A stretch of DNA of 64,000 nucleotides from Synaphobranchus kaupii. Its lineage: Eukaryota; Chordata; Actinopteri; Anguilliformes; Synaphobranchidae. Positions 24,717 to 63,157 of this stretch are shown here, one piece after another. The notes under the pieces are model-generated. The model had not been told where the DNA came from. It made no database searches and saw only the letters and a program-made list of their open reading frames with translations. Location of the stretch: contig CM056395.1 of NCBI GenBank assembly GCA_029718625.1, forward strand, positions 27,550,161 through 27,614,160, written 5' to 3'. A program made the translations under genes and the position numbers. Numbering within the stretch: the first letter of the stretch is position 1; each line of letters begins with the position of its first letter.

Positions 24717-25267
24717 CTACACCTCTGTCCCCTCTCTTGGGTATATCAAACTGTTTACACTGAAGCTGTTGTAGAAATGTCCATTGAACGGCCCGCTCTG
24801 TCCGCCGCTGAAAGAGTTGTAGTAGACGCCACGGTTGAGGTGCAGGCTATCCGAAATCTCAGTGCCCCCACTGTCCTGAGAAGAATTTGTGTGATACGGG
24901 CTGACGGCAGTGATGTTACGGCTTGACAGCTCGTTCACCAGTCCGAGAGAGGCTTGTCTGCCGTTGTGGCCAGAGTTCAGCGCGGACATGTTGCTGAAGA
25001 AGTTGTTAAAACACGGCGCAGCAGATAGTCCCGGTGGCGACACGCTTTTTTGGTCTTCACTGGCCGAGTCCAATTCCGGAGAAGAAGGCTCCATGAGGGG
25101 CGGACTGTCGGAGGACTTGATGGCCGGAGCCGATCGCCCTTCCTCCACTTTAGTGTTGCCAGGAACCCCGTTGCTGGAGTCCGACCTGCGCTTCCTCTTT
25201 CTGCGGAAGTTTCCGTTGTCGAACATTTTCTCGCAGTTAGGGTCCAACGTCCAGTAATTACCCTTTC
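24717..25267 (-). CDS. foxi1: FOXI gene coding exon 2
   Basis: 551 nt, starting GAAAGGGTAATTACTGGACG after the acceptor TTTATAG and ending GAGGTGTAG. It supplies the end of the forkhead domain, the basic stretch RRKRKRRSD and the C-terminal region. Confidence 0.93.
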
Positions 25268-26534: not shown

Positions 26535-26649
26535 AATATCCACAGGCAACCCCTCCTGAATAGAACAATGGGACGGTTAGAGGCGCGTTTCTGATTTTCT
26601 CGTACTGATGCAGCGACAAGTGCCAAGTGCACTGTGCTGGACTTTTAGT

Positions 26650-30454: not shown

Positions 30455-30888
30455 CAGTGCTCTCCAAAATTATTGGCACTCCTGGTAAAGATGAGTAAAA
30501 AGGGTTATAAAAAAATTCACCGTGTGGTGAATTAGCTTAATCTCACGCTGAAAAAAATGAGAATGTTTAATTGAAGTAAATTTATTCTGAGAAAAAAAAA
30601 AGAAGGGTGAACCCTCATCAAGAAATAATTATTTTTAACAAAACCATGTGTGCCACAATTATTGGCACGGAACCTCCACCATACTTAACAGTGGGGATCA
30701 GGTTATTTTCGGTATAGCCATCCTTCTTTTTACGCCAAACCCACCTTGAGTGTTGGTTGCCGAAAAGCTCAATTTTTGTTTCATCTGACCATAGAACACG
30801 GTTTAGCAAACTCCAGGCGCTTATGTTTGTGGTGAAATGGTAGGAAAGGCTATTTTCTGGCATGCCTTCCAAATAATTTGTTGCCATG
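30455..30888 (-). mobile_element. Tc1/mariner transposase remnant
   Basis: The terminus CAGTGCTCTCCAAAATTATT follows TATA. The minus strand then encodes a fragment with VLWSDETKIELFG, matching the region around the second catalytic Asp of Tc1 transposases, and a WVWRKKKDGY-like segment. Only about 80 residues of a family that usually runs to about 340 remain, and the left part is not in frame. The element is dead. Confidence 0.8.
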
Positions 30889-30892
30889 GAGG

Positions 30893-32890
30893 TTCAATTC
30901 AATTAAATTTTATTTGTATAGCGCTTTTTACAGAGAACTGTCACAAAGACGCTGCACAGAGAAACAGAAGGAAAATTGAGCAAAAAAATCTGGCCTGAAC
31001 CCCCAACCAGCAAAACGAGGTAAAAAACTCCCCGGTGGGAAGAGAAAAACACTGAACAGTGGCGAGAAAAAACTCCCCAATGGGAAGAAATCTCGGAAGG
31101 AACCTGGCTAGAGAGGGGGGGCCCATCCTTCGCTGGCCGGCCCGGTTTAAACTAATGGTGGAATGGATGGTAATAGACTGTAATGAGGGATCTAATAAAA
31201 CTAGCTGGTAAGTAGAAAGTCCAAAGAAAAAGATTGTAAAATGTTCAATTCAAAGGGGCGGGGTGGTGCATCTGGGACTCCGGTTGCGTCAAGGCAGGGG
31301 CATAAACCAGGGGAGGGACAGGACTGGAGCAGTCTGCAAACTCAGGGCGAGGGGCGGGACTAGAGCAATCAGCAAACTCAGGCGAGGGGCAGGACTGGAG
31401 CGGTCAGCAGATCAGGGCGAGGGGGGACGGGCCGGAGTAATCTGCAGCTCAGGGTGAGGGAGGAAAAGAGAAGGTTAGCCCCCCCGAAATCCTTAACTAT
31501 AGGATTGACTAAAGAGGTACGTTTTTAGCCTACACTTAAAGAGAGAAAGTGTGTCTGAAGCCCGAACAAAAAATAGGAAGATTGTTCCATAATAAAGGAG
31601 CTCTGTAAGAGAAGGCTCTGCCACTCATTGTAATTTTAGATATAATAGGAATTTTCAAATAGGCAGCACTTTGAGAGCGAAGTAATCTAGGAGGACAGTA
31701 AGGAATGAGTAAGTCACTAAGATATTCTGGAGCCAAACCATTTAAAGCTTTAAACGCTTAAAGTAAAATATTGTAGTCAATTCTGAATTTGACAGGCAGC
31801 CAATGAAGATTTTTGAGCACCGGGCTGATATGCTCCCATTTCTTGGTTCTAGTAAGAACCCTAGCAGCTGCATTCTGTACAAGTTGGAGACGATTCAGGG
31901 CTGAGCCAGTGCAACCAGACAATAAAGCATTACAGTAATCTAGTCGAGAGGTTACAAAAGCATGAACCATTTTTTCAGCATCCTCCAAGTACAACACTCC
32001 TTAATTTAGATATATTCCTCAGGTGGAAGAAGGCCATTTTTGTGATATTGTTACTATGGGGCTGAAAGGAGAGGTCTGAATCAATAGTTATATCTAATAT
32101 CTCAGTCTTATCTGAGTTCAATAAGAGGCCATTACATCTTTAAGACAGGTCTCTAGTTTAGACAACTGGTAAACTTCACCTGGCTTAACTGATATATAAA
32201 TTTGTGTGTCATCTGCATAGCAGTGGTAGTTAACACCATGCCTGCTTATAATGTTCCCAAGAGGGAGCATGTAAAGAGAAAAGAGCAAAGGACCCAAAAC
32301 CGATCCTTGTGGTACTCCAAAGTTCACCTGAAAATTCAGAGGACTGATTGTTTACCCTAACAAACTGGGATCTATCATAGAGATAAGATTTAAACCACAT
32401 AAGAGCATGCCTGGTGAGACCAACTAAATTTTCTAGCCTGTGGAGGAGAATATGATGGACTGCAGTATCAAAGGCAGCACTCAGGTCAAGTAAAACAAGA
32501 ATAGAAATACAGCCACAATCCAGAGAGAGGGCAGTCTCAGTGCTATGGTGCTTCCTAAACCCAGATTGAAACCTCTCATACACGTTATTAGTATGTAAAA
32601 ATGAAGAAAGCTGTTGTGCTACATATTTCTCAAGAATCTTTGATAAAAATGGGAGGTTTGAAATTGGTCTATAATTAGCCAGGACAGTGGGATCCAAATT
32701 TGGTTTCTTAAGCAGTGGCTCGATTTCTGCCAATTTAAAGGATGTAGGAACATGGCCCGATAACAATGATGAGTTAATTAAGTGAAGAATTGGTTTGATG
32801 AGCATAGGCAAGATCTCCTTCAGTAGCGTTGTGGTTACGGGGTCTAGAAGACAGGTGGATGATTTAGAAGAAGAAACTAACTTAGTTCAC
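30893..32890 (-). mobile_element. 5'-truncated, frame-broken non-LTR retrotransposon (L2/CR1-like LINE)
   Basis: The minus strand carries reverse-transcriptase motifs in order: a fingers segment LANYRPISNLPFLSKILEK, GFRKHHSTETAL, the catalytic motif A region [27 protein letters not shown], the motif C box [11 protein letters not shown], then the C-terminal part VTSRLDYCNALL and NAAARVLTRT. These lie in different frames (32230-32811, 32118-32327, 31758-31997, 31536-31736), so indels have broken the gene. The 3' end at about 30893 reads GCGCTATACAAATAAAATTT then TTGAATTGAA on the minus strand, the typical short-repeat tail of fish L2-like elements. No endonuclease domain is seen. Confidence 0.85.
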
Positions 32891-39549: not shown

Positions 39550-39590
39550 GTGTGTGTGTGTGTATGTATATTTGTGTTTGTGAGAGGGTG

Positions 39591-39622
<32 letters not shown>

Positions 39623-39644
39623 ATATTTGTGTTTGTGAGAGGGT

Positions 39645-39712
<68 letters not shown>

Positions 39713-39721
39713 TGAGAGGGT

Positions 39722-39757
<36 letters not shown>

Positions 39758-39803
39758 TGAGAGGGTGGTGTGTGTGTGTGTGTGTGTGTGTTTGTGAGAG
39801 GGT

Positions 39804-39837
<34 letters not shown>

Positions 39838-39873
39838 TGAGAGGGTGGTGTGTGTGTGTGTTTGTGAGAGGGT

Positions 39874-39931
<58 letters not shown>

Positions 39932-39954
39932 TGTGTGTGTGTTTGTGAGAGGGT

Positions 39955-39990
<36 letters not shown>

Positions 39991-39999
39991 TGAGAGGGT

Positions 40000-40037
<38 letters not shown>

Positions 40038-40047
40038 TGAGAGGGTG

Positions 40048-40078
<31 letters not shown>

Positions 40079-40087
40079 TGAGAGGGT

Positions 40088-40163
<76 letters not shown>

Positions 40164-40172
40164 CGCGTGCGA
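39550..40172. repeat. Interrupted (GT)n array in the 3' UTR of the receptor-like gene
   Basis: About 620 bp of GT dinucleotides, punctuated about ten times by TTTGTGAGAGGGTGGTG at variable spacing. It is a compound micro/minisatellite. It starts about 40 bp beyond the stop codon of the minus-strand gene, so the transcript would carry a long CA-rich 3' UTR. Confidence 0.93.
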
Positions 40173-40210
40173 GCGGTTTGTCCGGCGGAGTCCAGTGGTG
40201 CCGGAGGGCA

Positions 40211-40368
40211 TTACCAGCCAGCGTAAACAGGTTCCGTGTCGCCGGGCAGGGTGTAGAAGCGTCCTGGATGTCGGTCTTTGTGCAGCAGTGGCGCTCGTGA
40301 CAGCGACAGCTCCCCGTCTGTCTCCCGCTTCCTCCGCAGAACCAGCAGCACCACCAACAGCACCACCA
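40211..40368 (-). CDS. Receptor-like gene exon 9 (transmembrane end and tail)
   Basis: 158 nt, phase 1 to stop. It encodes MVVLLVVLLVLRRKRETDGE, then the tail to EPVYAGW and TAA. The acceptor CTTCCTCAG/TGGTGG is the last of nine near-identical copies in a 39-bp repeat, and only this one leads into the long tail. Confidence 0.82.
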
Positions 40369-43300
40369 CTGAGGAAGATCAGCAGAGCGTGAGGAAGAGT
40401 ACCACCACTGAGGAAGATCAGCAGAGCGTGAGGAAGAGTACCACCACTGAGGAAGATCAGCAGAGCGTGAGGAAGAGTACCACCACTGAGGAAGATCAGC
40501 AGAGCGTGAGGAAGAGTACCACCACTGAGGAAGATCAGCAGAGGGTGAGGAAGAGCACCACCACTGAGGAAGATCAGCAGAGCGTGAGGAAGAGCACCAC
40601 CACTGAGGAAGATCAGCAGAGCGTGAGGAAGAGCACCACCACTGAGGAAGATCAGCAGAGGATGAGGAAGAGCACCACCACTGAGGAAGACCAGCAGACG
40701 TACATGAACCTTTCCTCTTAAAGAGTTCTTATAGTCTACATCATCAGCTGTTATCTGTACATCTTTAAGCCCCCAAGGGACATATCTATAACACTGAAGA
40801 GAAAGCCAAGCAGCTGAGTGCTAGATGGGGGAAATGTGTTCAAATTGTGGAAACTACTAACATCCATCGATTAGAACTAGTTTCAGAAGTAGAACCGTAG
40901 AACAGGTTTTTATTCATTTTTTAGTCAAATGCTTCTGTTGGCCAGTTTGTCTAATTAGGAGACATTTTACATCTTTCAACAGAATGCAAACTGACTAATG
41001 TAGGCTACATTATCTTTACAGAATACCCAAAAGAGTATTTACATGGCCTGTTTGTCAATAAACTGATGTACAAATATGTGACACAAATGAGATGTGCTTG
41101 GACTGTGGGCGATACTGTAATTTTCTGCCCTGTGCGCCAGCGAGATGCCATCATTTTCTATTTCCATCTGCTTTAGGTCATTATTTACGGTCACGTGACG
41201 CATAAAATCAGCTGGTACTGCAGCACATAACATGCTATTATTTCTGCTGTTTGTTCATGAGAAGAATCTGCGGAGAGGTATGAGCAGACAGCATTAAGGA
41301 TGAGAGAGGATCCTGCTAAGAAAACACAGACAACAGGATATCCTAAAATGGACACTGGATATTAAGCTATGCAACTGCACTAAAAGCCAGCCATGACTAT
41401 ACATAGAGGGTACACAGCCATGACTATACCTGTCTATACATAGAGGGTACACAGCCATGACTATACATGTCTATACATACAGGGTACACAGCCATGACTA
41501 TACATGTCTATACATAGAGGGTACACACACAGCCACCTCTTAACGCTGCCTTCTGTCTGAGATTTGGATTTTGAAATATGTTTTTAAATATTTTGCACTT
41601 CTCTATAATTTTTTGCATCTTCTCGATAATTTTTCAATTATGCTTCAATTTATTCCTGGAGGCTTGGAGAGGCATGAAATGTACTTCCTCCCTCAGTGAT
41701 TCCGTCCCAATATTCATCACTCCTCACCTCCTTTCCTCCACTTGTCTCCTCCCCGGAAGTATGCAAAACTGCCTGTACATTTCAAGTACAATTAGTTGCA
41801 TGTGCAGCATACAATGTACCTGACATTGCGGTTTGCGTCGAGACATTAATTAATATGTAACCATTAAGATGAAATCAGCGACATTAGATTATGACACAAA
41901 GATCAGTTTCCGGGGCACGGAGGAGAGGTGGTGGTAGTGGAGGCAAAGGAGGATGTACTGGGATGCACCCATACTTCCTCTCCAATAACCTATGACCCCA
42001 TCCTTCAGTAATAGATACTTCCTCTCCAATGACCTATGACCCCATCCTTCAGTAATAGATACTTCCTCTCCAATGACCTGTGACCCCGCCCTAATGAGTA
42101 CGTACTTCCACCTCCGATGACCATCAGGGCAATGGTGATGGGGGCCAGCTCACAGCTCTCCCCTGCTTTTTGGAAGAAGGTCTCCATGCAGTAACCAGGG
42201 GCGATACTCCCAGTGGGACAGAAGGCATCATTGGGGCACTGGATGGGGTTCACATCCGGACTCTGGGGTAGAGAGAGGGGGGTACGGGGCATTAGGGAAC
42301 TCTGGCTGGAGCCTCACTGAGCACAGAATTAGCGCCCCCCGTGTGCAAGTCTAACGAGTATTAACCCTAACAAGCCTGAACACTCAGAGAAGAGGAACAG
42401 TGCCTGCCACACTTCCAGAGCTAAACTCAAAACACAAAACTCATTCACAACCTTTCACCTTCAAAAGATCAGTACATTCAAAATCAAGCGCTTTTGGCGG
42501 TTTTTCAGGACTCGTGGGAGCAATGACAGGAAGCTAAAAGAACGCACACAGGAAGTGACACAACACTCTATTCCAGATCACTGTTAAGCAAATGAAAGTG
42601 ATCAACAGGTACTAGTCTAAAGGTATTAGAACTATTTTAGACAGTTTCTTACAACACTTTTAATTGGCTAGAAAACAGAGTGATTTGTAATGATACTTTG
42701 CTTCACGGATTGTGACCAAAAATGTGATTTTTCAATCTTTACAAATATGATTTGTAAAAATAAAGAAAATAGGAAAGTAGTGGTAGTGTTAGGGTAACGG
42801 TGGGGTACACACAGTAGTGATAGCATAGGGGTAATTGTATTGTATTCAGGGGCAATAATCATAGATCTGGGGTAACTTGTATTCATGGGGCAAAAGCAGC
42901 AATGCTGGGGTAACAATGGGGTACTCACTGGGCAGTAGTGATTCTCGGGGCAGATATTGCAGGATTCCTGCCCCCACCGGATCTGGTAGAAGCCACTGGT
43001 GCAGATCTGACACATCGTTTGGCGGGAAGCCTTGTGCATGCCTGTCGGGGGCAGAGATAATCAGCATCTGCCAATCAGATCAGCTCACTAACCGCCCAGC
43101 AACTGCCATCCTCAATACGGCCCAATCAGATCAGCTCACTAACCGCCCAGCAACTGCCATCCTCAATACGGCCCAATCAGATCAGCTCACTAACCGCCCA
43201 GCAACTGCCATCCTCAATACGGCCCAATCAGATCAGCTCACTAACCGCCCAGCAACTGCCATCCTCAATACGGCCCAATCAGATCAGCTCACTAACCGCC

Positions 43301-46300
43301 CAGCAACTGCCATCCTTAATACGGCCCAATCAGATCAGCTCACTAACCGCCCAGCAACTGCCATCCTCAATACGGCCCAATCAGATCAGCTCACTAACCG
43401 CCCAGCAACTGCCATCCTCAATACGGCCCAATCAGATCAGCTCACTAACCGCCCAGCAACTGCCATCCTCAATACGGCCCAATCAGATCAGCTCACTAAC
43501 CGCCCAGCAACTGCCATCCTCAATACGGCCCAATCAGATCAGCTCACTAACCGCCCAGCAACTGCCATCCTCAATACGGCCCAATCAGATCAGCTCACTA
43601 ACCGCCCAGCAACTGCCATCCTCAATACGGCCCAATCAGATCAGCTCACTAACCGCCCAGCAACGCCATCCTCAATACGGCCCAATCAGATCAGCTCACT
43701 AACCGCCCAGCAACGCCATCCACAATACGGCCCAATCAGATCAGCTCACTAACCGCCCAGCAACGCCATCCTCAATACGGCCCAATCAGATCAGCTCACT
43801 AACCGCCCAGCAACGCCATCCACAATACGGCCCAATCAGATCAGCTCACTAACCGCCCAGCAACTGCCATCCTCAATACGGCCCAATCAGATCAGCTCAC
43901 TAACCGCCCAGCAACTGCCATCCTCAATACGGCCCAATCAGATCAGCTCACTAACCGCCCAGCAACTGCCATCCTCAATACGGCCCAATCAGATCAGCTC
44001 ACTAACCGCCCAGCAACTGCCATCCTCAATACGGCCCAATCAGATCAGCTCACTAACCGCCCAGCAACTGCCATCCTCAATACGGCCCAATCAGATCAGC
44101 TCACTAACCGCCGAGAAACGCCATCCTCAATACGGCCCAATCAGATCAGCTCACTAACCGCCCAGCAACGCCATCCACAATACGGCCCAATCAGATCAGC
44201 TCACTAACCGCCCAGCAACTGCCATCCTCAATACGGCCCAATCAGATCAGCTCACTAACCGCCCAGCAACTGCCATCCTCAATACGGCCCAATCAGATCA
44301 GCTCACTAACCGCCCAGCAACGCCATCCTCAATACGGCCCAATCAGATCAGCTCACTAACCGCCCAGCAACTGCCATCCTCAATACGGCCCAATCAGATC
44401 AGCTCACTAACCGCCCAGCAACGCCATCCACAATACGGCCCAATCAGATCAGCTCAATAACCGCCCAGAAACTGCCATCCTCAATACGGCCCAATCAGAT
44501 CAGCTCACTAACCGCCCAGCAACTGCCATCCTCAATACGGCCCAATCAGATCAGCTCACTAACCGCCCAGCAACGCCATCCACAATACGGCCCAATCAGA
44601 TCAGCTCAATAACCGCCCAGAAACTGCCATCCTCAATACGGCCCAATCAGATCAGCTCACTAACCGCCCAGCAACGTCATCCTCAATACGGCCCAATGAA
44701 ATCAGCTCACTACCCGCCCAGCAACGCCATCCTCGATACGGCCCAATCAAATCAGCTCACTAACCACCCAGCAACGCCATCCTCAGTATGGCCCAATCAA
44801 ATCAGCTCACTAACCGCCCAGCAACGCCATCCTCAATACGGCCCAATCAGATCAGCTCACTAACCGCCCAGCAACACCATCCTCAATACGGCCCAATCAA
44901 ATCAGCTCACTAACCGCCCAGCAACGCCATCCTCAATACGGTCCAATCAGCTCACTAACCGCCCAGCGACGCCATCCTCAATACGGCTCAATCAGATCAG
45001 CTCACTAACCGCCCAGCAACGCCATCCTCGATACGGCCCAATCAAATCAGCTCACTAACCGCCCAGCAACGCCATCCTCAATACGGCCCAATCAGCTCAC
45101 TAACCGCCCAGCAACGCCATCCTCAATATGGCCCAATCAGATCAGCTCACTAACCGCCCAGCAACACCATCCTCAATACGGCCCAATCAAATCAGCTCAC
45201 TAACCGCCCAGCAACGCCATCCTCAATACGGTCCAATCAGCTCACTAACCGCCCAGCGACGCCATCCTCAATACGGCTCAATCAGATCAGCTCACTAACC
45301 GCCCAGCAACGCCATCCTCGATACGGCCCAATCAAATCAGCTCACTAACCGCCCAGCAACGCCATCCTCAATACGGCCCAATCAGCTCACTAACCGCCCA
45401 GCAACGCCATCCTCAATATGGCCCAATCAGATCAGCTCACTAACCGCCCAGCAACACCATCCTCAATACGGCCCAATCAAATCAGCTCACTAACCGCCCA
45501 GCAACGCCATCCTCAATACGGTCCAATCAGCTCACTAACCGCCCAGCGACGCCATCCTCAATACGGCTCAATCAGATCAGCTCACTAACCGCCCAGCAAC
45601 GCCATCCTCGATACGGCCCAATCAAATCAGCTCACTAACCGCCCAGCAACGCCATCCTCAATACGGCCCAATCAGCTCACTAACCGCCCAGCAACGCCAT
45701 CCTCAATATGGCCCAATCAGATCAGCTCACTAACCGCCCAACAACGCCATCCTCGATACGGCCCAATCAGATCAGCTCACTAACCGCCCAGCAACGCCAT
45801 CCTCGATACGGCCCAATCAGCTCACTAACCGCCCAATATCACCATCCTCAATACGGCCCAATCAAATCAGCTCACTAACCGCCTACATCGCCATCCTCAA
45901 TACGGCCCAATCAGCTCACTAACCGCCCAGCACTGCCATCCTCAATACAGCCCAATCAGATCACTAACCGCACAGCAACGCCATCCTCAATACGGCCCAA
46001 TCAGATCAGCTCACTAACCGCCCAGCAACGCCATCCACAATACGGCCCAATCAGATCAGCTCACTAACCGCCCAGCAACTGCCATCCTCAATACGGCCCA
46101 ATCAGATGAGCTCACTAACCGCCCAGCAACTGCCATCCTCAATACGGCCCAATCAGATCAGCTCACTAACCGCCCAGCAACGCCATCCTCAATACGGCCC
46201 AATCAGATCAGCTCACTAACCGCCCAGCAACTGCCATCCTCAATACGGCCCAATCAGATCAGCTCACTAACCGCCCAGCAACGCCATCCACAATACGGCC

Positions 46301-49300
46301 CAATCAGATCAGCTCAATAACCGCCCAGAAACTGCCATCCTCAATACGGCCCAATCAGATCAGCTCACTAACCGCCCAGCAACTGCCATCCTCAATACGG
46401 CCCAATCAGATCAGCTCACTAACCGCCCAGAAACTGCCATCCTCAATACGGCCCAATCAGATCAGCTCACTAACCGCCCAGCAACGTCATCCTCAATACG
46501 GCCCAATGAAATCAGCTCACTACCCGCCCAGCAACGCCATCCTCGATACGGCCCAATCAAATCAGCTCACTAACCGCCCAGCAACGCCATCCTCAGTATG
46601 GCCCAATCAAATCAGCTCACTAACCGCCCAGCAACGCCATCCTCAATACGGCCCAATCAGATCAGCTCACTAACCGCCCAGCAACACCATCCTCAATACG
46701 GCCCAATCAAATCAGCTCACTAACCGCCCAGCAACGCCATCCTCAATACGGTCCAATCAGCTCACTAACCGCCCAGCGACGCCATCCTCAATACGGCTCA
46801 ATCAGATCAGCTCACTAACCGCCCAGCAACGCCATCCTCGATACAGCCCAATCAAATCAGCTCACTAACCGCCCAGCAACGCCATCCTCAATACGGCCCA
46901 ATCAGCTCACTAACCGCCCAGCAACGCCATCCTCAATATGGCCCAATCAGATCAGCTCACTAACCGCCCAACAACGCCATCCTCGATACGGCCCAATCAG
47001 ATCAGCTCACTAACCGCCCAGCAACGCCATCCTCGATACGGCCCAATCAGCTCACTAACCGCCCAATATCACCATCCTCAATACGGCCCAATCAAATCAG
47101 CTCACTAACCGCCTACATCGCCATCCTCAATACGTCCCAATCAGCTCACTAACCGCCCAGCACTGCCATCCTCAATACAGCCCAATCAGATCACTAACCG
47201 CACAGCAACGCCATCCTCAATACGGCCCAATCAGATCAGCTCACTAACCGCCCAATATCGCCATCCTCAATACGGCCCAATCAAATCAGCTCACTGACTG
47301 CCCAAGATCACCATTCTCAATATGGCCCAATCAAATTAGGTCACTAAACTCCTTAAACAGAGAACGCACTGTGGCCTAAATTAAATTACATAACTTCCCT
47401 TATCGGAAATGCGTTAAGAAGCTGTCCTTGCACCAACCGTTCATCCAACTATAGACTTCCTGTTATCCCTGTAAAATAAATAGGCTTACAAGAAACAAAC
47501 ACAGAAGAAAACAAGAATTAAACACAAAAAGCCTCTTGTTTCAAAATGTTAAATCTTCAACAGCCCAGTGCAGGGAGGCATTTGACACGCAGAACAGCTG
47601 CTTAGAATGCGCTGAAGAGCAAACTGAATGTCCACAATGCACCATGTAACCAAGCGGCATGACAGGATATGACAAACAAGGCAAACCATGTGACCCCGCC
47701 AATCACCTCTGATTAGACCAGCTGGGAGGTGGGACTTGGAGCTATTCAATCTAAGCACAAATTGCTCTGCCCTTACAGGAAAGATTCACCCAAAACTGGA
47801 AAAACTACAATCTGCAGATGGCAAAACAAACACCCAATACAATTAGGCAAAAAAAATAAAAAATCCAAAAAACAATCCAGAAACACTTGTTCAAGAATAA
47901 AAAACAGTTACTCCTGCTAACATTTGCTATTCACATTTAAGGACAAAGCCCTTTGCTGTTAGATTGAATCTGCCACACGCCCTGCTGGGATTAAAGGGAT
48001 GAGTTGGGTGGTTACCTGGGCGACAAAGTGTACACTCTTTGGATGCGGCTTGTAAGGACTCCCTACCAGCAGGGCAGAGCTGGCACATGGGGCATCTAGA
48101 AGAACTGTAAGAAGGCAAGATCAATTAAGTCTCAAAGAGACGACAAACCCGCAATACAATTAAATTCCCCACTATTCTGCTCCCCAGAGCCCTGGGGGTT
48201 TATAGAAGTGCTTCTAAAAACGCTACTAATTCATATGGCATCCTACAGAGGGCTTTTACAGGGTGCGAAATTAGCCTGCTAAAACAGAGGCAGTGTCCTC
48301 TACACTGTTAGCTGGGGCACCTGACCACACAAGGCTAAAAATATGGACTTTTCCCTTTAAGCTGCAATTACCCAATTTGTCCCATGTTGGTTACAAAGCC
48401 TCCCATTTAAGAGGTTTCAAAAAACACACACACACACGCCCCTCATATATGTGACTCACTTGCAGAAAGTCCCCTGTGGACACGGCTCACAGGATGTGGC
48501 GTTTGGCCCAGTGGAGTAAAAACCTGTGGAAAAAACAGTGATAATGAGCCTTCAAACACTCATCCCTGTATACAAACACACCAGTGACAATGAGCCTTCA
48601 AACACTCATCCCCTGTATACAAACACACCAGTGACAATGAGCCTTCAAACACTCATCCCCTGTATACAAACACACCAGTGATAATGAGCCGTCAAACACT
48701 CAACCCCTGTATGCAAACACACCAGTGATAATGAGCCTTCACTCATCCCCTGTATACAAACACACCAGTGATAATGAGCCTTCAAACACTCATCCCCTGT
48801 ATACAAACACCAGTGATAATGAGCCTTCAAACACTCATCCCTGTATGCAAACACACCAGTGATGAGCCTTCAAACACTCATCCCCTGTATACAAACACAC
48901 CAGTGATAATGAGCCTTCAAATACTCATCCCCTTTACACAAACACACCAGTGATAATGAGCCTTCAAACACTCATCCCCTTTATACAAACACACCAGTGA
49001 TAATGAGCCTTCAAACACTCATCCCTGTATGCAAACACACCAGTGATGAGCCTTCAAACACTCATCCCTGTATGCAAACACACCAGTGATAATGAGCCTT
49101 CAAACACTCATCCTTGTATACAAACACACCAGTGACAATAAGCCTTCAAACACTCATCCCCTGTATACAAACACACCAGTGATAATGAGCCTTCAAACAC
49201 TCATCCCCTTTATACAAACACACCAGTGATAATGAGCCTTCAAACACTCATCCCCTGTATACAAACACACCAGTGATAATGAGCCTTCAAACACTCATCC

Positions 49301-52300
49301 CTGTATACAAACACACCAGTGACAATAAGCCTTCAAACACTCATCCCCTGTATACAAACACACCAGTGATAATGAGCCTTCAAACACTCATCCCCTGTAT
49401 ACAAACACACCAGTGATAATGAGCCTTCAAACACTCATCCCCTTTATACAAACACACCAGTGATAATGAGCCTTCAAACACTCATCCCTGTATGCAAACA
49501 CACCAGTGATAATGAGCCTTCAAACACTCATCCCTGTATGCAAACACAGCAGTGATAATGAGCCTTCAAACACTCATCCCTGTATGCAAACACACCAGTG
49601 ATAATGAGCCTTCAAACACTCATCCCCTGTATACAAACACACCAGTGATGAGCTTTCAAACACTCATCCCTGTATGCAAACACACCAGTGATGAGCCTTC
49701 AAACACTCATCCCTGTATGCAAACACACCAGTGATAATGAGCCTTTAAATACTCATCCCCTGTATACAAACACACCAGTGATAATGAGCCTTCAAACACT
49801 CATCCCCTGTATACAAACACACCAGTGATAATGAGCCTTTAAATACTCATCCCCTGTATACAAACACACCAGTGATAATGAGCCTTCAAACACTCATCCC
49901 CTGTATACAAACACACCAGTGATAATGAGCCTTCAAACACTCATCCCCTTTATACAAACACACCAGTGATAATGAGCCTCCAAACACTCATCCCTGTATG
50001 CAAACACACCAGTGATAATGAGCCTTCAAACACTCATCCCTGTATGCAAACACACCAGTGATAATGAGCCTTCAAACACTCATCCCTGTATACAAACACA
50101 CCAGTGACAATAAGCCTTCAAACACTCATCCCCTGTATACAAACACACCAGTGATAATGAGCCTTCAAACACTCATCCCCTGTATACAAACACACCAGTG
50201 ATAATGAGCCTTCAAACACTCATCCCCTTTATACAAACACACCAGTGATAATGAGCCTTCAAACACTCATCCCTGTATGCAAACACACCAGTGATAATGA
50301 GCCTTCAAACACTCATCCCTGTATGCAAACACACCAGTGATAATGAGCCTTCAAACACTCATCCCTGTATGCAAACACACCAGTGATAATGAGCCTTCAA
50401 ACACTCATCCCCTGTATACAAACACACCAGTGATGAGCTTTCAAACACTCATCCCTGTATGCAAACACACCAGTGATGAGCCTTCAAACACTCATCCCTG
50501 TATGCAAACACACCAGTGATAATGAGCCTTTAAATACTCATCCCCTGTATACAAACACACCAGTGATAATGAGCCTTCAAACACTCATCCCCTGTATACA
50601 AACACACCAGTGATAATGAGCCTTCAAACACTCATCCCCTTTATACAAACACACCAGTGATAATGAGCCTCCAAACACTCATCCCTGTATGCAAACACAC
50701 CAGTGATAATGAGCCTTCAAACACTCATCCCCTTTATACAAACACACCAGTGATAATGAGCCTTCAAACACTCATCCCCTGTATACAAACACACCAGTGA
50801 TGAGCTTTCAAACACTCATCCCTGTATGCAAACACACCAGTGATGAGCCTTCAAACACTCATCCTTGTATGCAAACACACCAGTGATAATGAGCCTTTAA
50901 ATACTCATCCCCTGTATACAAACACACCAGTGATAATGAGCCTTTAAATACTCATCCCCTGTATACAAACACACCAGTGATAATGAGCCTTCAAACACTC
51001 ATCCCCTGTATACAAACACACCAGTGATAATGAGCCTTCAAACACTCATCCCCTTTATACAAACACACCAGTGATAATGAGCCTTCAAACACTCATCCCC
51101 TTTATACAAACACACCAGTGATAATGAGCCTTCAAACACTCATCCCTGTATGCAAACACACCAGTGATAATGAGCCTTTAAATACTCATCCCCTGTATAC
51201 AAACACACCAGTGATAATGAGCCTTCAAACACTCATCCCCTGTATACAAACACACCAGTGATAATGAGCCTCCAAACACTCATCCCCTGTATACAAACAC
51301 ACCAGTGATAATGAGCCTTCAAACACTCAAATTCTTCAGTACAAATACACGCGACTTTTAAAAAAGTTAATTAGTGATCTTTAATCAAATCAGCCTCAAA
51401 CGTTGTGGCCTGAAATTACAGGTACTCAAGCTACAAGTGGGAGCTTTTTTCAAAGGGAAGGTGAGTTTCTGTACAAAGAATTTAACTCATTTAAAAATGA
51501 ACAATACCAACAGTTTGAAATTATGCATAAAATATAAAGCAATATGAATAAAGCCCTTCACAAATTAACATATTATACAAATGCGGGAATATTATTCTTA
51601 GTTCATGAACGATTATTGGACTAAAGCATTTAATTACTGGAATTGTTTCCAAGATTATCTTGAACAACACCGACAACATTTTGTGTTCACGGTTGAGTCA
51701 TGGCCACACTGATCAGCATGTGACATATCTATAATACATCTATATCTATAATACATAACTTAATGGAATGAAATAAGTAAGGGAATAGTGAAGAGAAACG
51801 CGCTCGACTGCATGTAATAATAACTAATATTAATATTAACTAAGACTGGGTGCTGAATCCTTCAAAAAGTACAGAAATCAGTAAGATCCAGGACAGCACT
51901 CCCATTGTGAATTTAAAATTTTGCACAAACGTTTTGGGCAAGAGGCCCTAATTCAGTATGCCTAAAGCCACACCTGTGTACACACCTGTGTTTTGTATGT
52001 TACTTTAGGCATACTGAATTAGGGCCTCTTGCCCAAAACGTTTGTGCAAAATTTTAAATTCACAATGGGAGTGCTGTCCTGGATTATTTTTTTTGATAAT
52101 GTAAATGTAATGTAAAAAAAGTAAATGAATAAAAAATATACTGTATATTTATTAGCGAAGACGAAAGAAAAAAAGGCTGATTAAAAAGTCACTCTGGAAT
52201 AACATCACTGATGCAGATCCTTAGCTTTTCAGGGCCTTGTGCAACTGACAGTCATATGATAGAAAATCATCAACAACTTGTTTTTCCTCACCAGTTTTGG

Positions 52301-52687
52301 AAAGATACTTAATTCTTTCCGTACTCAAGCAAGGGCTTGAATACGACATTTTCTTTGTCTCCATATTCGTACGAATAGTGGGAAATTCTGCACAGTCCCC
52401 GTTTTATATGCAATATGTTCTGCCTAAAGGTCTGTATGTATGCGCAATGAAAATTATTCCTTCAGGGGCAATAAAATGTAATTTTATCTTCAATAATTTG
52501 TCTTTAGCTGGGTGCAGGTGAGGCTATCTGGGTGCAGGTGAGGCTACGTGGGTACAGGTGAGGTTACCTGAGGAGCAGCTTCTGCAGGTCTCTGACCCGG
52601 TGCTGTTAGTGTAGGATCCTGGTGGGCAGGACTGGCACACAGGGCTACCTGTAATACTGAGAGAGGGAGAGTCCTGTGTGAATGTGA

Positions 52688-52720
<33 letters not shown>

Positions 52721-55106
52721 TGAATGTGAGCGTCTGTGTATATACCTGTAGGTGCGAGTGTGAATGTGTGTGTGTGTGTGTGCGTGTGTAAGTGTCTGCA
52801 TGTGTGTTATATGTGCATGTGTGTGTGTGTGTGTGTGTGTGTGAGATACTCACTTGTTGTATGAGCCCTGTTGGCAGGGCTGGCAGTGCAGTTGGCCGGT
52901 GAGCGGCTGGTAGAATCCTCTGTCACAGGGCAGGCAGGCTTGGGGTAACAGACACAGGCCCGACTCTGGACAGCACGAGCACAGAAGCGTTTCTGAGGGG
53001 ATGGGCACGTTAATCAGCGCTAAAGCAAACACAATAATCGCCACATTCAGCTTCACTATTCACCCACAAAACATTCTCCTGCTACACCCATTACAGTCAA
53101 CACCATTTGGCTGTTACACAGTACTGATGCTACGGTTCCAAAGAAAGCAGGTTAATTACTGAATGTAGCTAATACAGTCAACATGAACCCTAAAACAGAT
53201 ATAGTTCATGTATACACTTCATGTCACAACTTCCTACGATCAGATCAGAGTTCTGCTGTTTCACACTTGATAAAACACAGAAAATTAATCAACCATCTAA
53301 AGATATAAAGATGACATGCATGTCAGAGAGAGGCGAGATAGAAAAGTGGTCAGGTTAAAAGTGGACGGTGTGTATTGTTGGTTAGCATTGGTTCATAATA
53401 GAAAGTAAACAAACAATGACACAATCAGACAATACACCAAATTTATTAACAGGCTAAATTTCCCCGAAGTAAAACGGACGGTAGAAGTGAAATACAGCTG
53501 GCAGTAATGCGCCCTGCTTTTGTAAAGTTGTAGATTGCTGTGTTGAACAGTCACGTCAATATGACTGGATGTCGCACCATTATGCAGTACCTAGAAAAGG
53601 AGGTTTGAATTCCACAGCAGACACTAGATTCCTTATAAATCACTCCTTCCATCCTTTCCTTGACTCCCAGTGATGTTTTCTGGTGAGGTCAAGGAAAAGT
53701 TGCAAGGAAAGGAAAAAAGGACCCCAGGCACATATGGGCCAAGCCTAGATATCGCAGAAAGTGGAGCTGGTGCCAAACTAACCAGGAGGGGGTTCCACTA
53801 AATCTCCACTCACATTACCCATTTTCCACCAACACAAACCTTGTTCTGGTTCTGGGCCGGTGCCGGTGCTAGTGCCGCTTTGCAGCTGGTTCAACTTGCG
53901 AAGCTTCTAAGGTTTGCTTTTCCACGGGCTAGAGAGCCAGGTCATTACGTCACTGCGTACTTCTGTATACGTCTCCACTTTCCCAGCAACTTCAAGCACA
54001 GCAACAACAATGGCGGACTACATCGCATCTCTAGTGTTGCAAAAAATGGTTGTTTTGATTTCACGTCCATGCTGAAGCTCGTTATTTATTTATTTTTTTT
54101 AAATGGCGATCACAAAGTTTTAGTTGGTCTTGGTTGGTCACGATAATCCCGCCCACAGCACCTGACGTAGCGGTTCTTGGTTCTAGACCAGCTAAGTGTT
54201 GGTGCCGCTCTGGAACCAGTTCTCCTGGCAGAGATCCGGTTCTTTTGCTGTCAAAACGAGAATAGACACCGGGTCCAAAGCGGCCGTCGAGCTTGCTTGG
54301 TGGAAAAGCCCACATACAGAACATCAGCATTGCCTTCAACTCTCACAGCTCAGTCCATTCTACAGATGAAAGTCTTATTATCCTCTTATATATGTGCCCA
54401 GTTGAAAGCTCTGCCATTGCAGAAGGGATTTTCTGTCCCGGGTTTCCCAGGGGGCGGTGGCCAGAAGACTGTTGTTCCTGTACAGAGTTTCCCACCTTCT
54501 GCTTTTCAGGTGAAATTTGAGGTAAAAAGGGGAAGCTGTCCAGTAACACACAATGAACTTTTTGAGCCATGCAAAATGGCCACCGACATGAAATACATGC
54601 GCAAATGGAAAGGTAAACTTCACACATAAAAAAATTAAAAAATACAATTATTGTATTTTAGAAAAAGTGACTTTGGATTTTTTTCTTGTACACACATGGA
54701 GGAACTTCAGGATAACAGCACTGAGTACACTAACTAAATTTTACACTTCAGCATTTTATTTTCACAGCTTAAGTTATAAAAACAACCTGTTCCACTTTGA
54801 ACGAGACAAATTCTCTTAAGGACGAACGGTTAGACAGCAGCACTGGAAAAGCTGAACCGCCATCTTGGCTGCTGTTAAAGAGGCACATGATCCCACATGC
54901 AGTGTATCCGTGGAAACGCATGGGGGCGGGGCATACCGTTGTCATAGTAGGATCCTACGGAGCACACCTCACAGGTGGAGAGGTTGAAGGCGGAGCAGGC
55001 TGAGAGGGTGGTGGTGAGCGGAACGGACGTGGTCATCGTCACGTTCTCGTCCACCGTAGAGTTTGTCACGGGGGGAACGAGTGTGGTCTGGCCAACCACT
55101 ACACCT

Positions 55107-60611: not shown

Positions 60612-63157
60612 CCTCTGTAAAAGGAAATGCTGTTTCAGACATGCTGTCAATGTTCATATGTAAACCTCAACCAATCATCTATGAAATCTGCATTATATGT
60701 AATTGCTATGGTAACTTGACGGCCCTCGCTGGACGCTAAGAAAAGTTAGATGGGTGAAGGGTTAGGGTTAGGGTGGGAGCCTCTGTAGGGTTTTTCAAAT
60801 TTCTACTTTAACATCTACATCTGGATGAATATTAGACATAAATGTGAAACCAAGAAAAGGCAGTGGCAATTTACTGTGGATTCAAGATGAAATTACCCAG
60901 TGATAATAAAAATCTAACTGACTGCAGAAATAAGGTTTTCATGAAATAGGCAAGTCTGCACAAAGCTGACCATCCCCTCTATGACCTGCTTCCACTGCTC
61001 AACTTCTCCGGGAGCATAAGGACAAGGCCTAATGGACTAAAAAGGGCCACTAGGGATTAGGGCATTTAATAGTGTAAACTATGCAAGCGGATCTCCAGCA
61101 ACAGGACGGCTTTTATTTATTTATTTTCTTACTTCCTTACTATGATCGTTTTGTGTTAAATGTGTTTTTACTTCCGCTTTTAATGTTGTACATTCTGAAA
61201 AATGTAATCTTTATACTGCAAGACAGAATTAAATAAAAATCAGTCAATCAGTACATACTTATTTGTAGACATGTCACCTCAAAGGAACTTTGGGGCGGGG
61301 GGGGGGGGGGGGGGGGGGGGGTATTCTAATGCATCAGAGAGTCGTTGTTTTCCTAACAAGATTAGACATGAGAAACATTCTGCGAGATCATAAATAGATT
61401 AGTGCAGAAATAAAAAGCGGCACGGCAGATTTAAAATTTCTAATTAATTTAATAAAATCTAACCAAAAAAAAAAAGAAATCAATTCTAAGAATTCCTGGC
61501 CTTTATTGTGAGAAACTATCTTTGGTCAAAGCTTTCATTGTACTTGGAAGATAACTTTTACCCAACAGCCTACCAATACATAGACAAGCCAACATCGATG
61601 TAGAAAACTAAGAACTTTCACACGTAAAATTCAGCAGACAAACAAGCGTGTTTAAAAAAAAAATAAGAACAGCTGAACAGGTGAAGAACAGTTAATTAAA
61701 ACGGATAAATTAATGGCACTGGTGTCTGTCTGATTGTCGAGAATACCAAAATACTCAACGGAAGAATTTTGCTCTGCAGGGATATTTTGGCCTCCTTACT
61801 ACTAGTTTGGCAGATGCCAAGAAAACCTTAGCCGGATTACTGAGTTAGCTGGATAACTGTACTTAGTAAGAGAAGCAGGATTACTGAGTTAGCTGGATAA
61901 CTGCACTGAGAAAACCTGGAACCCCCTCCTCCCCAAATCTGGAACATGGATTGAAGTAAAAAGAGCTGTTTCAGATTTTACTCAGTGTATTTATCTAGCT
62001 AACTCCTGCTTCGTGAAATACCCCACTGCATGTAAACTTCACCTGTTAGTGTTGTTTACAGGCAGTTAGGCCAAACTTTGCCAAGAAATATAGCCTACTT
62101 GTTAAGCCTACATCTCTTGATAGCATTTGATAAGGGTCACCATCTAGCAATAATATAAGCATTTGAATAAGGAATCGTCTCTCAAAATATTATTAAAACC
62201 AACATAGGCCTATTGTCTTTGTAGGCTAATCAGTTTTATTTTGGTTGCCTTGCAACCAGTCACTCCGTACGAGACTTTGAACCATCTTACCCCCATCTTT
62301 TTCTGTGCAATCTGCATTTCTCTTTTCTACTGAAAATCCTTGTGTTACTCTTATTATTAGAACCAACAGACAGTTTTTGGTATAAAATGCAGAACACATA
62401 ACATGGTTGCAGATCAGAATTCATGAGCCTACAGGTTGCTGTTCCACACAATTCACTCATTGAATTCAAGGACTGTGAATTGTAGGCTACTGAATCGCTA
62501 CAAATTTCACATACATTTCCAAGACCCAGACTGCAGTCTAAATAGAATGAACACGTGTTCTGGTGCAGTCAGGCAAATCACAACAAGTGAACTTCCTTAA
62601 ACTAGAAATGACTACATATTTTTCTGGCCAACACCAAAGTAGACAATCCCGTTTCGGACGCATTCATTCGTTTCCTAACATCCAAACAGTCCACTGTAAT
62701 ATTCGGGAGAGAAAAAAGCATTCAACAGTAGCCTGCGGATAGATATTCAATACCAACCAGATGCTTTGGGCAATGTGAAAAGGGGTGCAATTCTTCCATA
62801 TGTCTTCACCCTAGTCTTAATGTTAACAACGATAATGATGTTTTGAATAAGACGCCTTGCCTTAATCACGGGATCTTCCCTAAGGCAGAAAGCAAGCCTG
62901 CGAATCGCGGCACAGCAGCTGCTATATTCACTAAAGTTACTGTTTACTCTCCAAGTTTCGATAAACTCAATCACCGTGAAAACGAACCATCGAGCGATAG
63001 TTAAATCGACTGCAACGGGTATTTACAACCCAAACAAACATGATTTCAGACTCTACAATGGAAGCGCATCTTCCGTCAGCAGCTCAAGTAGGCTAGGCTA
63101 CTCACCTATAAAGCAAACGGCGGCGACCACGGCGAACGCCCCCAGATTTCGTCCCAT
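40211..63157 (-). CDS. Cysteine-rich type I membrane protein, nine exons, 342 aa, function unknown
   Basis: Nine exons joined by GT-AG signals in consistent phase give 1029 nt. Layout: signal peptide MGRNLGAFAVVAAVCFIG (residues 1 to about 22); Thr/Ser-rich stalk with sequons NST and NVT (24-52); cysteine-rich ectodomain (about 54-275) made of CxxC-G-Y/F modules such as CQSCPPGSYTNSTGSETC and CEPCPQGTFC, resembling the GCC2/GCC3 ephrin-receptor-like fold; further sequons NIT, NST, NAT and NSS; transmembrane helix about 280-301 (ITIALMVIGGG then MVVLLVVLLVL); stop-transfer RRKR; and a 41-residue tail ending EPVYAGW. It should sit in the plasma or endosomal membrane with a disulphide-rich outer part. 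The start ATG has A at -3 and G at +4. I recognise the module type but no named gene. A decoy or scavenger receptor-like role is conceivable but not shown. Confidence 0.85.
40360..40712. repeat. 39-bp minisatellite containing the exon 9 splice acceptor, 9 copies
   Basis: On the plus strand the unit is ACCACCACTGAGGAAGATCA plus GCAGAGCGTGAGGAAGAGT. ACTGAGGAAGA starts occur at 40368, 40407 and then every 39 bp up to about 40680. Read on the minus strand each unit gives GATCTTCCTCAG/TGGTGGT, a polypyrimidine-AG acceptor. Confidence 0.93.
40713..41390. other. Intron 8 of the receptor-like gene, unique part
   Basis: AT-rich sequence with no exon or repeat supported. Confidence 0.5.
41391..41530. 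repeat. 37-bp minisatellite, about 4 copies (intron 8)
   Basis: The unit contains CATGACTATACATGTCTATA and CATAGAGGGTACACAGC. Confidence 0.88.
41973..42104. repeat. 44-bp repeat in register with the exon 8 donor
   Basis: Starts ACTTCCTCTCCAAT at 41973, 42017 and 42061 are followed 43 bp later by the related ACTTCCACCTCCGATGACC, which is the exon 8 donor boundary itself. On the minus strand every unit gives GGTCATTGGAGAGGAA/GTAT, against the real GGTCATCGGAGGTGGAA/GTAC. Confidence 0.9.
42106..42262 (-). CDS. Receptor-like gene exon 8
   Basis: 157 nt, phase 0 to 1, encoding SPDVNPIQCPNDAFCPTGS through CELAPITIALMVIGGG, the last ectodomain cysteines and the first half of the transmembrane helix. 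Acceptor TACCCCAG; donor GGTGGAA/GTACGT, chosen because it restores the frame to exon 9. Confidence 0.83.
42263..42928. other. Intron 7 of the receptor-like gene
   Basis: 666 bp of unique AT-rich sequence with no repeat or additional exon supported. Confidence 0.6.
42929..43041 (-). CDS. Receptor-like gene exon 7
   Basis: 113 nt, phase 1 to 0, encoding MHKASRQTMCQICTSGFYQI, RWGQESCNICPENHYCP. Acceptor CCCCCGACAG; donor CCA/GTGAGT. The 51-bp array ends 30 bp upstream of its acceptor. Confidence 0.85.
43071..47350. repeat. 4.3-kb satellite array, about 85 units of 51 bp (intron 6)
   Basis: The unit is CCCAATCAGATCAGCTCACT, AACCGCCCAGCAACTGCCAT, CCTCAATACGG. Variants are 50 bp (missing one T before GCCAT) and about 45 bp (missing CAGAT). 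The left end is nearly pure 51-bp units, so a plus-strand frame stays open for 291 codons; 50-bp units break it. Divergence rises towards the right edge (47250-47350). Each unit includes a CCAAT word. Larger period structure is described under findings. Confidence 0.97.
47351..48015. other. Rest of intron 6
   Basis: Unique AT-rich sequence between the satellite and exon 6, with no exon supported. Confidence 0.55.
48016..48104 (-). CDS. Receptor-like gene exon 6
   Basis: 89 nt, phase 2 to 1, encoding SSRCPMCQLCPAGRESLQAA and SKECTLCRP. It has the same length and phases as exon 4, consistent with module duplication. Acceptor TTCTTACAG; donor CCCAG/GTAACC. Confidence 0.85.
48460..48523 (-). CDS. 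Receptor-like gene exon 5
   Basis: 64 nt, phase 1 to 2, encoding GFYSTGPNATSCEPCPQGTF and C. Acceptor TTTTTTCCACAG/GTTTT; donor CAA/GTGAGT. The acceptor directly borders the 47-bp minisatellite. Confidence 0.85.
48536..51330. repeat. 2.8-kb minisatellite, about 60 units of 47 bp (intron 4)
   Basis: The unit is CACACCAGTGATAATGAGCC, TTCAAACACTCATCCCCTGT, ATACAAA, with CCCTTTATAC, CCCTGTATGC and GTGATGAGCC variants. It begins 13 bp upstream of the exon 5 acceptor and ends in diverged units near 51330. Confidence 0.96.
51331..52515. other. Rest of intron 4
   Basis: AT-rich sequence carrying the 81-bp perfect inverted repeat at 51887-52083. No exon is supported. Confidence 0.5.
51887..52083. 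repeat. Perfect 81-bp inverted repeat with 35-bp loop
   Basis: Arms 51887-51967 and 52003-52083 are exact reverse complements (outer ends TCCAGGACAGCACTCCCATT and its complement). The loop contains two copies of CACACCTGTGT. It is probably a MITE or foldback insertion. Perfect identity of the arms means it is young or kept identical by conversion. Confidence 0.92.
52516..52575. repeat. 20-bp triplication at the exon 4 donor
   Basis: On plus: CTGGGTGCAGGTGAGGCTAT, CTGGGTGCAGGTGAGGCTAC, GTGGGTACAGGTGAGGTTAC. On the minus strand the three units begin GTAACC (the real donor), GTAGCC and ATAGCC. Confidence 0.88.
52568..52656 (-). CDS. Receptor-like gene exon 4
   Basis: 89 nt, phase 2 to 1, encoding ITGSPVCQSCPPGSYTNS and TGSETCRSCSS. 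Acceptor CTCTCTCAG/TATTACAGG; donor TCAG/GTAACC. The donor is the first unit of a 20-bp triplication. Confidence 0.85.
52680..52847. repeat. CA/GT microsatellites filling intron 3
   Basis: Three GT runs (52690-52718, 52766-52783, 52818-52842) occupy most of the 197-bp intron between exons 3 and 4. Confidence 0.92.
52854..52992 (-). CDS. Receptor-like gene exon 3
   Basis: 139 nt, phase 1 to 2, encoding CSCCPESGLCLLPQACLPC, DRGFYQPLTGQLHCQPCQQG and SYN. Acceptor CCCCTCAG/AAACG; donor CAA/GTGAGT. Confidence 0.85.
52993..53820. other. Intron 2, unique part
   Basis: No exon or repeat supported. Confidence 0.5.
53822..54306. mobile_element. MITE with TTTTCCACC ends (intron 2)
   Basis: TTTTCCACCAACACAAACC at the left pairs with TTGCTTGGTGGAAAA at the right. 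Internal CGGTGCCGGTGCTAGTGCCG and GGTTCTTGGTTCTAGACCAG are typical of a common fish MITE family with GGTTCTGG-rich subterminal sequence. No functional transposase frame is present. Confidence 0.65.
54307..54936. other. Intron 2, part next to exon 2
   Basis: Overlapping frames on both strands (54177-54647) have no motif and no splice context. No gene is supported. Confidence 0.45.
54937..55104 (-). CDS. Receptor-like gene exon 2 (stalk, first cysteines)
   Basis: 168 nt, phase 1 to 1, encoding GVVVGQTTLVPPV through CEVCSVGSYYDN. The acceptor CTCTCTCTCTCAG belongs to a (GA)n microsatellite (55107-55138 on plus), so its polypyrimidine tract is a simple repeat. The donor is ACG/GTATGC. Confidence 0.85.
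55107..55138. repeat. GA microsatellite forming the exon 2 acceptor tract
   Basis: (GA)n on plus. On the transcribed strand it is a (TC)n polypyrimidine tract ending in CAG. Confidence 0.9.
55139..55962. other. Intron 1, left part
   Basis: Contains a seven-fold hexanucleotide-type repeat CCCAACT (55485-55536) and an open minus-strand cysteine-rich segment (55620-55725, see findings). No exon could be joined in frame. Confidence 0.5.
55963..56404. repeat. 16-bp pyrimidine minisatellite, about 27 copies (intron 1)
   Basis: The unit is CCCTCCCTCTCTCTAT with a CCCACCC variant arranged in blocks. Plus-strand Ser/Leu/Pro frames over it are artefacts. Confidence 0.95.
56405..56765. other. Intron 1, short unique stretch
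   Basis: A 96-codon plus-strand frame (56506-56796) has no domain features and runs into a MITE. It is not supported as a gene. Confidence 0.45.
56766..57402. mobile_element. MITE family C with internally amplified 44-bp unit
   Basis: The inverted ends are GGTATACTACGAAGCAGGGT and, at the right, CCTGCTTCATAGTATACC, with TTACTGAGTTA/TAACTCAGTAA inside. Between them a 44-bp unit (GCACTGAGTAAGAGAAGCAG, GATTACTGAGTTAGCTGGAT, AACT) is repeated about 11 times. The unit contains the MITE's own terminal sequence, so the array grew from the left terminus. Confidence 0.85.
57403..58126. other. Intron 1, unique stretch
   Basis: AT-rich, with no exon supported. Confidence 0.5.
58127..58647. repeat. 47-bp minisatellite, 11 copies (intron 1)
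   Basis: The unit is TGGAACTCTCACATAAGAGA, TGATATGCTTGCTATCTCGT, TACTCAA. Copies are virtually identical except the last two, which carry CTTGTTACTC and one AAAGGAAC change. Confidence 0.96.
58648..61830. other. Intron 1, long AT-rich stretch
   Basis: No exon supported. It contains a (TA)n tract at 60575-60607, a short TTAGGG pair at 60761-60772 and a poly-G run of about 25 at 61297-61321. Confidence 0.5.
61832..62023. mobile_element. MITE family C, second copy
   Basis: It shares GGATTACTGAGTTAGCTGGA, TAACTG and GTAAGAGAAGCAGG with the copy at 56.8 kb, and ends TAGCTAACTCCTGCTTCGTG AAATACCCC. It has only two 44-bp-type units, so it probably shows the state before the large expansion. Confidence 0.72.
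62024..63105. other. Intron 1, part next to exon 1
   Basis: AT-rich with no exon or repeat array supported. Confidence 0.5.
63106..63157 (-). CDS. Receptor-like gene exon 1 (signal peptide)
   Basis: 52 coding nt ending TTTATAG/GTGAG, phase 1. It encodes the hydrophobic core of the signal peptide, which finishes in exon 2. The 5' UTR lies to the right, and no TATA box was seen there. Confidence 0.8.

Follow-up and report, generated by a model that had tools for sequence, protein, structure and literature searches.

A 39-bp minisatellite with nine tandem candidate splice acceptors at the last exon of a predicted membrane protein gene of Synaphobranchus kaupii

The last intron of a predicted membrane protein gene of the eel Synaphobranchus kaupii ends in a minisatellite that spans the intron 8/exon 9 boundary and carries nine near-identical candidate 3' splice sites. 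The gene lies on the minus strand of the window, by which we mean the whole stretch of 64,000 nucleotides that was analysed (assembly GCA_029718625.1, contig CM056395.1, positions 27,550,161 to 27,614,160). We consider it moderately probable that the nine sites act as competing in-phase acceptor modules, of which the eight upstream ones would give one and the same tail-less protein and the ninth would give a protein with a conserved predicted cytoplasmic tail, the choice among branch points deciding between the two. The array, the like make-up of its nine copies, their phase, their common stop and the conserved tail are properties of the DNA and of its conceptual translation. The array and its acceptors are as follows.

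40359..40698, minus strand: 39-bp minisatellite over the intron 8/exon 9 boundary, with nine acceptors (Tandem Repeats Finder and exact-match search)
40681, 40642, 40603, 40564, 40525, 40486, 40447, 40408 and 40369, minus strand: last G of each of the nine AG acceptors (exact-match search)

An exact-match search with TCTTCCTCAGTGGTGGT over positions 40151-40800 returned nine exact minus-strand copies of TCTTCCTCAG/TGGTGGT at a constant spacing of 39 bp (40369-40681). Tandem Repeats Finder delimited the same array at 40359-40698, with a period of 39, 8.7 copies, 97% matches and a score of 624, values that leave no room for chance. A sequence-only reading of this DNA had proposed nine 39-bp-spaced acceptors at the last exon, and both searches bear it out. 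The repeat alignment at acceptor 9 crosses the intron 8/exon 9 junction: in each unit, 10 nt match the first bases of exon 9 (in units 5-8, nine of the ten) and are followed by 29 nt of intron type. The eight full units comprise four distinct sequences with three variable sites and differ by 1.25 positions per pair on average. Units 5-8 are identical, which suggests a recent expansion or homogenisation of the array.

All nine copies carry an AG, a pyrimidine-rich tract and a match to the branch-point motif yUnAy, located at -22 in eight of them and at -25 in the first; among the gene's seven other acceptors, six also have a yUnAy match within -15 to -60. The AG-free zone measures 37 nt in eight array acceptors and 27 nt in one. 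The matrices of vertebrate frequencies with which candidate acceptors were scored are approximate, as is the branch-point motif. The nine array sites score 7.82-8.42, the ninth having 7.82 and the eight others equal or slightly higher values; scores at the other seven acceptors of this gene span 7.52-16.62. When all 114 AGs in and around intron 8 were scored, the array sites made up nine of the top thirteen. Three AGs of intron 8 outside the array (10.2, 10.0 and 9.8) outscore every array site and a fourth (8.1) outscores six of them; therefore, acceptor scores alone do not predict use.

The gene consists of nine exons, and exons 2-9 join at canonical AG/GT sites with consistent phases. Exon 1 was placed near 63157-63106 by tblastn with the Conger protein. 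The coding parts, all on the minus strand, are listed from 5' to 3'.

63106..63157, minus strand: exon 1 coding part (MGRNLGAFAVVAAVCFI, likely signal peptide), donor ATAG/GTGAGT assigned by eye (tblastn)
54937..55104, minus strand: exon 2 (gene model)
52854..52992, minus strand: exon 3 (gene model)
52568..52656, minus strand: exon 4 (gene model)
48460..48523, minus strand: exon 5 (gene model)
48016..48104, minus strand: exon 6 (gene model)
42929..43041, minus strand: exon 7 (gene model)
42106..42262, minus strand: exon 8, coding for the last part of the Cys-rich region and for the predicted membrane helix up to its middle; donor GAA/GTACGT (gene model)
40211..40368, minus strand: exon 9, coding bases after the ninth acceptor, with the rest of the predicted helix and the 41-residue tail RRKRETDGELSLSRAPLLHKDRHPGRFYTLPGDTEPVYAGW, stop at 40213-40211 (gene model)

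The predicted full product has 342 residues by addition, 17 from exon 1 and 325 from exons 2-9. A preliminary chain without exon 5 matched the Ephrin_rec_like repeats (PF07699, E 1.8e-15; 56.9 bits, cut-off 23.1), and a scan of the C-terminal piece found a hydrophobic segment whose best 19-residue Kyte-Doolittle mean is 3.03. Based on sequence, the gene is a member of a vertebrate family recorded in fish as si:dkey-21a6.5, with which it shares the Cys-rich Ephrin_rec_like repeats, the hydrophobic segment and the tail ending in EPVYAGW. Among the 93 homologues listed, the closest by identity were from Conger conger (83%, the closest named), an unnamed record (83%), Aldrovandia (80%) and Albula (78%). 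Others came from sharks, sawfish, coelacanth, amphibians, birds and a turtle, with a weak match in a nematode. No mammal name was seen among the 93, some of which are records without a name.

The products expected from each acceptor follow from the exon 8 donor (GGTGGAA/GTACGT), which yields the junction codon ATG with the array acceptors. Units 2-8 then read ATG GTG GT(G/A) CTC TTC CTC AC(G/C) CTC TGC TGA, whereas unit 1 has ATC in place of ACG or ACC and thus encodes LILC. The stop begins after 26 exonic bases at each upstream acceptor, and the stops are distributed as follows.

40379..40654, minus strand: eight in-frame TGA stops, one per unit, first bases at 40654, 40615, 40576, 40537, 40498, 40459, 40420 and 40381 (splicing and translation of the gene model)

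From any of the eight upstream acceptors, the predicted chain ends ...ELAPITIALMVIGGGMVVLFL(T/I)LC (...GGGMVVLFL(T/I)LC) before the TGA. This tail-less chain would have 282 residues, or 299 with exon 1 by addition, and its versions differ by one residue only. In contrast, from the ninth acceptor alone the chain continues ...MVVLLVVLLVLRRKR... to EPVYAGW and adds the 41-residue tail. The unit codons had been read in this way before, and starting from the exon 8 donor we confirmed that phase is kept and that TGA follows nine codons; translation from all nine acceptors likewise upheld the claim that only the last copy reaches the tail. Because the unit is 13 codons long, copy number cannot change the phase. 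The predicted tail-less end stays hydrophobic, with a Kyte-Doolittle value of 2.48 over 19 residues (2.75 for the first unit) and one residue after them. By the usual rule for nonsense-mediated decay, a stop in the last exon is not expected to trigger decay of the mRNA. The stop of the tail-less mRNA would lie in the last exon, and this mRNA should therefore escape.

Upstream of the array, an AG at 40793 scores 9.76 and, as read by eye, would give M-L-stop after exon 8, a tail-less product as well. We also considered the array as a coding minisatellite in the main product: two of the three frames are open through it, but the exon 8 donor sets the closed frame. Translating the array as protein would, by reasoning, require splicing from a different donor, for example the weak copy at 42063 (score 1.36), and we rejected this reading for the main product.

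The tail itself is widely shared. An EPVYAGW-type motif ends 83 of the 93 homologues (exactly EPVYAGW in 75), as it does the predicted tail of the gene studied here, and such conservation across vertebrates makes it likely that loss of the tail would matter. A di-leucine ([PL]LL) occurs within the last 45 residues of all 83 homologues with the terminal motif, in the form RAPLL in 36. This form resembles the di-leucine sorting signal of LIMP-2 (ERAPLI), a resemblance that serves as a lead only. Compared with Conger, 37 of the last 41 residues matched, against 230 of 272 in the rest. For four other relatives, the tail matched at 31, 35, 32 and 26 of 41 residues (0.63-0.85); in one of them the tail matches better than the remainder of the protein, in three it matches less well. 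The tail is thus conserved about as well as the whole protein, and no more. Ten of the 93 homologues lack the motif (P0019, P0036, P0044, P0051, P0067, P0083 and P0090-P0093). Among these, P0019 ends in a variant sequence, P0090 apparently runs on into intron 8, and P0092 and P0093 match only distantly; the remaining six were judged from C-terminal listings or names only. The end sequence of the predicted tail-less product, sought among the C-termini of the 93 homologues listed, was the C-terminus of none of them.

The reading that we favour would work as follows. The U2 snRNP would settle on the branch point of one of several nearly identical modules, after which the spliceosome would take the first AG at a sufficient distance downstream, namely the one 22 nt further on in that unit. 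To obtain the tailed form, the choice would have to fall on the last branch point or points. According to the scanning rule, the first AG downstream of the branch point is used, although AGs within about 12-15 nt can be bypassed (PMC1431707, which we cite for this rule). Under this rule the choice of branch point would fix the AG, and since the motifs of the modules are alike, a mixture of forms is expected. Each unit holds a second branch-point match, CTGAT, 11 nt before its own AG and 50 nt before that of the next unit; it would point to the next unit's AG because 11 nt falls below the bypass limit of 12-15 nt. The tailed share would be 1/9 if all modules were equal, less if the earliest transcribed were favoured and more if exon 9 enhancers favoured the last, and it would likely fall as copies were added. 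The di-leucine suggests that the tail may sort the protein to endosomes, in which case the tail-less form would remain at the surface. It counts against this explanation that the tail is well kept relative to Conger (37/41), which argues for a need for the tailed form, and that AGs outside the array outscore its sites. We found no support for an RNA structure that singles out the last AG (z -1.29, with 11 of 100 shuffles folding as well), and no known RNA family reached the gathering threshold in the window.

The strongest competitor is that the array is neutral and that exon definition or exon 9 enhancers cause the ninth acceptor to be used almost always, which we regard as possible but less likely than competition among modules. 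Comparable "mirage" minisatellites of amphioxus span exon-intron boundaries in the globins BflGb6 and BflGb9 and in Adh3; the Adh3 data and RT-PCR of the globins, as reported, suggest that regular splicing is not interfered with (PMC3087553), which counts against the favoured reading. The match of the tail to Conger fits such neutrality, and so does the abundance of minisatellites in the gene, where 11 arrays of period 16 or more make up 41% of the span. However, the upstream copies equal the ninth in acceptor, tract and branch-point motif, so that only exon 9 sequence downstream could tell the ninth from the others, and the donor-side copies that were scored in the same gene have weak signals.

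A bolder version of the competition scheme seems to us rather unlikely: the array might serve as a copy-number dial, each 39-bp unit adding a splice module and shifting the product from the tailed, di-leucine-sorted form to a tail-less and possibly GPI-anchored one, so that individuals would differ in surface display. Small residues before the C-terminal hydrophobic run may constitute a GPI signal at the tail-less end. The sequence-only reading had already proposed that repeat number could tune the ratio of the two forms. What the sequence supports of that interpretation is its gene model, its phase, its common stop and its ninth-only tail, while the tuning would depend on use of the upstream copies.

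It is improbable, in our judgement, that the array is a harmful load in drift, with most transcripts tail-less, the gene losing its tail and copy number having no adaptive role. The near identity of the units (a mean of 1.25 differences per 39 bp) implies that the array is young or homogenised, scanning for the first AG would favour tail-less products, and three of the four other relatives match less well in the tail than elsewhere (tail match 0.63-0.85 across the four); yet the exon 9 reading frame is intact and its end conserved. An assembler that inflated or collapsed the copy number is a very improbable source of the pattern: tandem arrays are error-prone and one amphioxus mirage appeared aberrantly assembled in a genome draft (PMC3087553), but the units differ in an ordered way, with four sequence types, and the array, at only about 340 bp, fits within one long read.

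Repeats also cross other junctions of this gene. We aligned 14 of its 16 splice junctions (introns 2-8), each against its own intron, and found repeat partners crossing the junction at four of the 14: donors 4, 7 and 8, and acceptor 9. The junction-crossing scores were 33 at donor 4 (z 9.0), 32 at donor 7 (z 7.7), 29 at donor 8 (z 5.4; the best of 200 shuffles reached 27) and 81 at acceptor 9 (z 28.1), while seven mid-exon controls scored 14-20. At donor 3 and acceptors 4 and 5, the repeat partners end short of the junction. Next to the exon 8 donor lies a further repeat.

41971..42087, minus strand: 44-bp repeat next to the exon 8 donor (Tandem Repeats Finder and alignment)

The exon 8 donor (42106) aligns as a degenerate copy of this 44-bp unit, exonic bases included, and boundary-spanning repeats thus flank both ends of intron 8. 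Donor-site scoring covered the copies at donors 7 and 8: the two copies of donor 8 score 1.36 against 5.36 at the real site, and the copy of donor 7 scores 3.47 against 7.21. Of all copies scored, the acceptor 9 ones alone equal the original site.

Several of these repeats can be located individually. The end of exon 7 and its donor have a degenerate copy inside intron 7 (42790-42940; ATCACTACT...GTACCCCA...GTTACCC), and a 20-bp repeat overlaps the exon 4 donor at 52508-52570, with copies seen by eye as CAG/GTAACC, CACGTAGCC and CAGATAGCC. A 47-bp array of about 60 copies (48536-51329) comes to within 13 bp of the exon 5 acceptor on the upstream side; of its 179 AGs, 48 reach an acceptor score of at least 5. 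Another array, of 50-bp units in about 86 copies (43071-47347), ends 30 bp upstream of the exon 7 acceptor; its units include branch-point-like CTGAT motifs and none of its 283 AGs scores 5 or more.

Evidence for an enrichment of repeats at splice sites is mixed. Junctions inside or near arrays are no commoner than under random placement, with 6 of 15 within 30 bp (mean 7.45) and two inside (mean 6.97). Strong repeat partners also turned up for 229 of 400 intronic 50-mers taken at random. Both results count against enrichment at junctions. Array edges behave differently: 6 of the 11 arrays of period 16 or more have an edge within 30 bp of a junction, a count reached by none of 20000 free placements (mean 0.86) and none of 3000 exon-avoiding ones (mean 0.68), in a post hoc test on one gene that left out arrays of shorter period. 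A variant without intron 1 agreed (6 of 8 arrays).

Elsewhere in the window, a CA/GT dinucleotide repeat of about 600 bp (39550-40163) starts about 50 bp after the tailed stop codon and, given that distance, likely lies within the 3' untranslated region. Minus-strand frames at 24717-26576 resemble what we take to be a forkhead gene of FoxI type (RPPYSYSALIAMAIQNAHEKKLTLSQIYQYV), and minus-strand fragments at 30618-32886 presumably represent a reverse-transcriptase element (YADDTQIY) and a Tc1-like transposase.

Boundary-spanning minisatellites and repeated donors are of a known kind. The amphioxus mirages share with the 39-bp array the tandem boundary copies, many with AG/GT, beside an authentic boundary; their units measure 150-160 bp in BflGb6 (81-100% identical) and 10-72 bp in Adh3, and not all have splice signals (PMC3087553). 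The array described here differs by its 39-bp unit, a multiple of the codon, and by a branch-point motif, tract and AG in nine of nine copies. In human IFI6 (6-16, G1P3), a minisatellite is reported to supply multiple splice donors that lead to alternative mRNAs (PMC4526556). Splice sites are repeated in both cases, but those of IFI6 are donors with reported use and those found here are candidate acceptors. The 38-bp repeat VNTR6-1 in intron 6 of TERT affects isoform ratio; it lies about 3.5 kb upstream of the affected exons, G-quadruplexes are proposed, and in the accessible part of that report its units are not presented as splice sites (PMC11830802). Human internal tandem repeats at exon-intron boundaries can generate alternative splicing (PMC2812944). 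As in NAGNAG or closely spaced acceptors, several AGs compete at one intron end, although those AGs lie within about 12 nt whereas the spacing here is 39 nt and each AG has its own branch-point match. No description of a comparable acceptor array was found among the records listed in the literature searched, which covers only a minority of subscription journals. Judged from the predicted gene structure, what is new is an acceptor-side array of intact modules with a uniform predicted tail-less product ending at the membrane helix, to which three donors of this gene add boundary-spanning repeats of a weaker kind.

Nine near-identical acceptors with one readable outcome, tailed or tail-less, amount to a natural experiment on whether 3' splice site choice takes the first site, the last or one at random. 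If the upstream copies are silent, it has to be explained how the last of nine like sites is selected. If they are used, the isoform ratio of a receptor would be set by a repeat whose length is likely variable, with alleles ready for testing.
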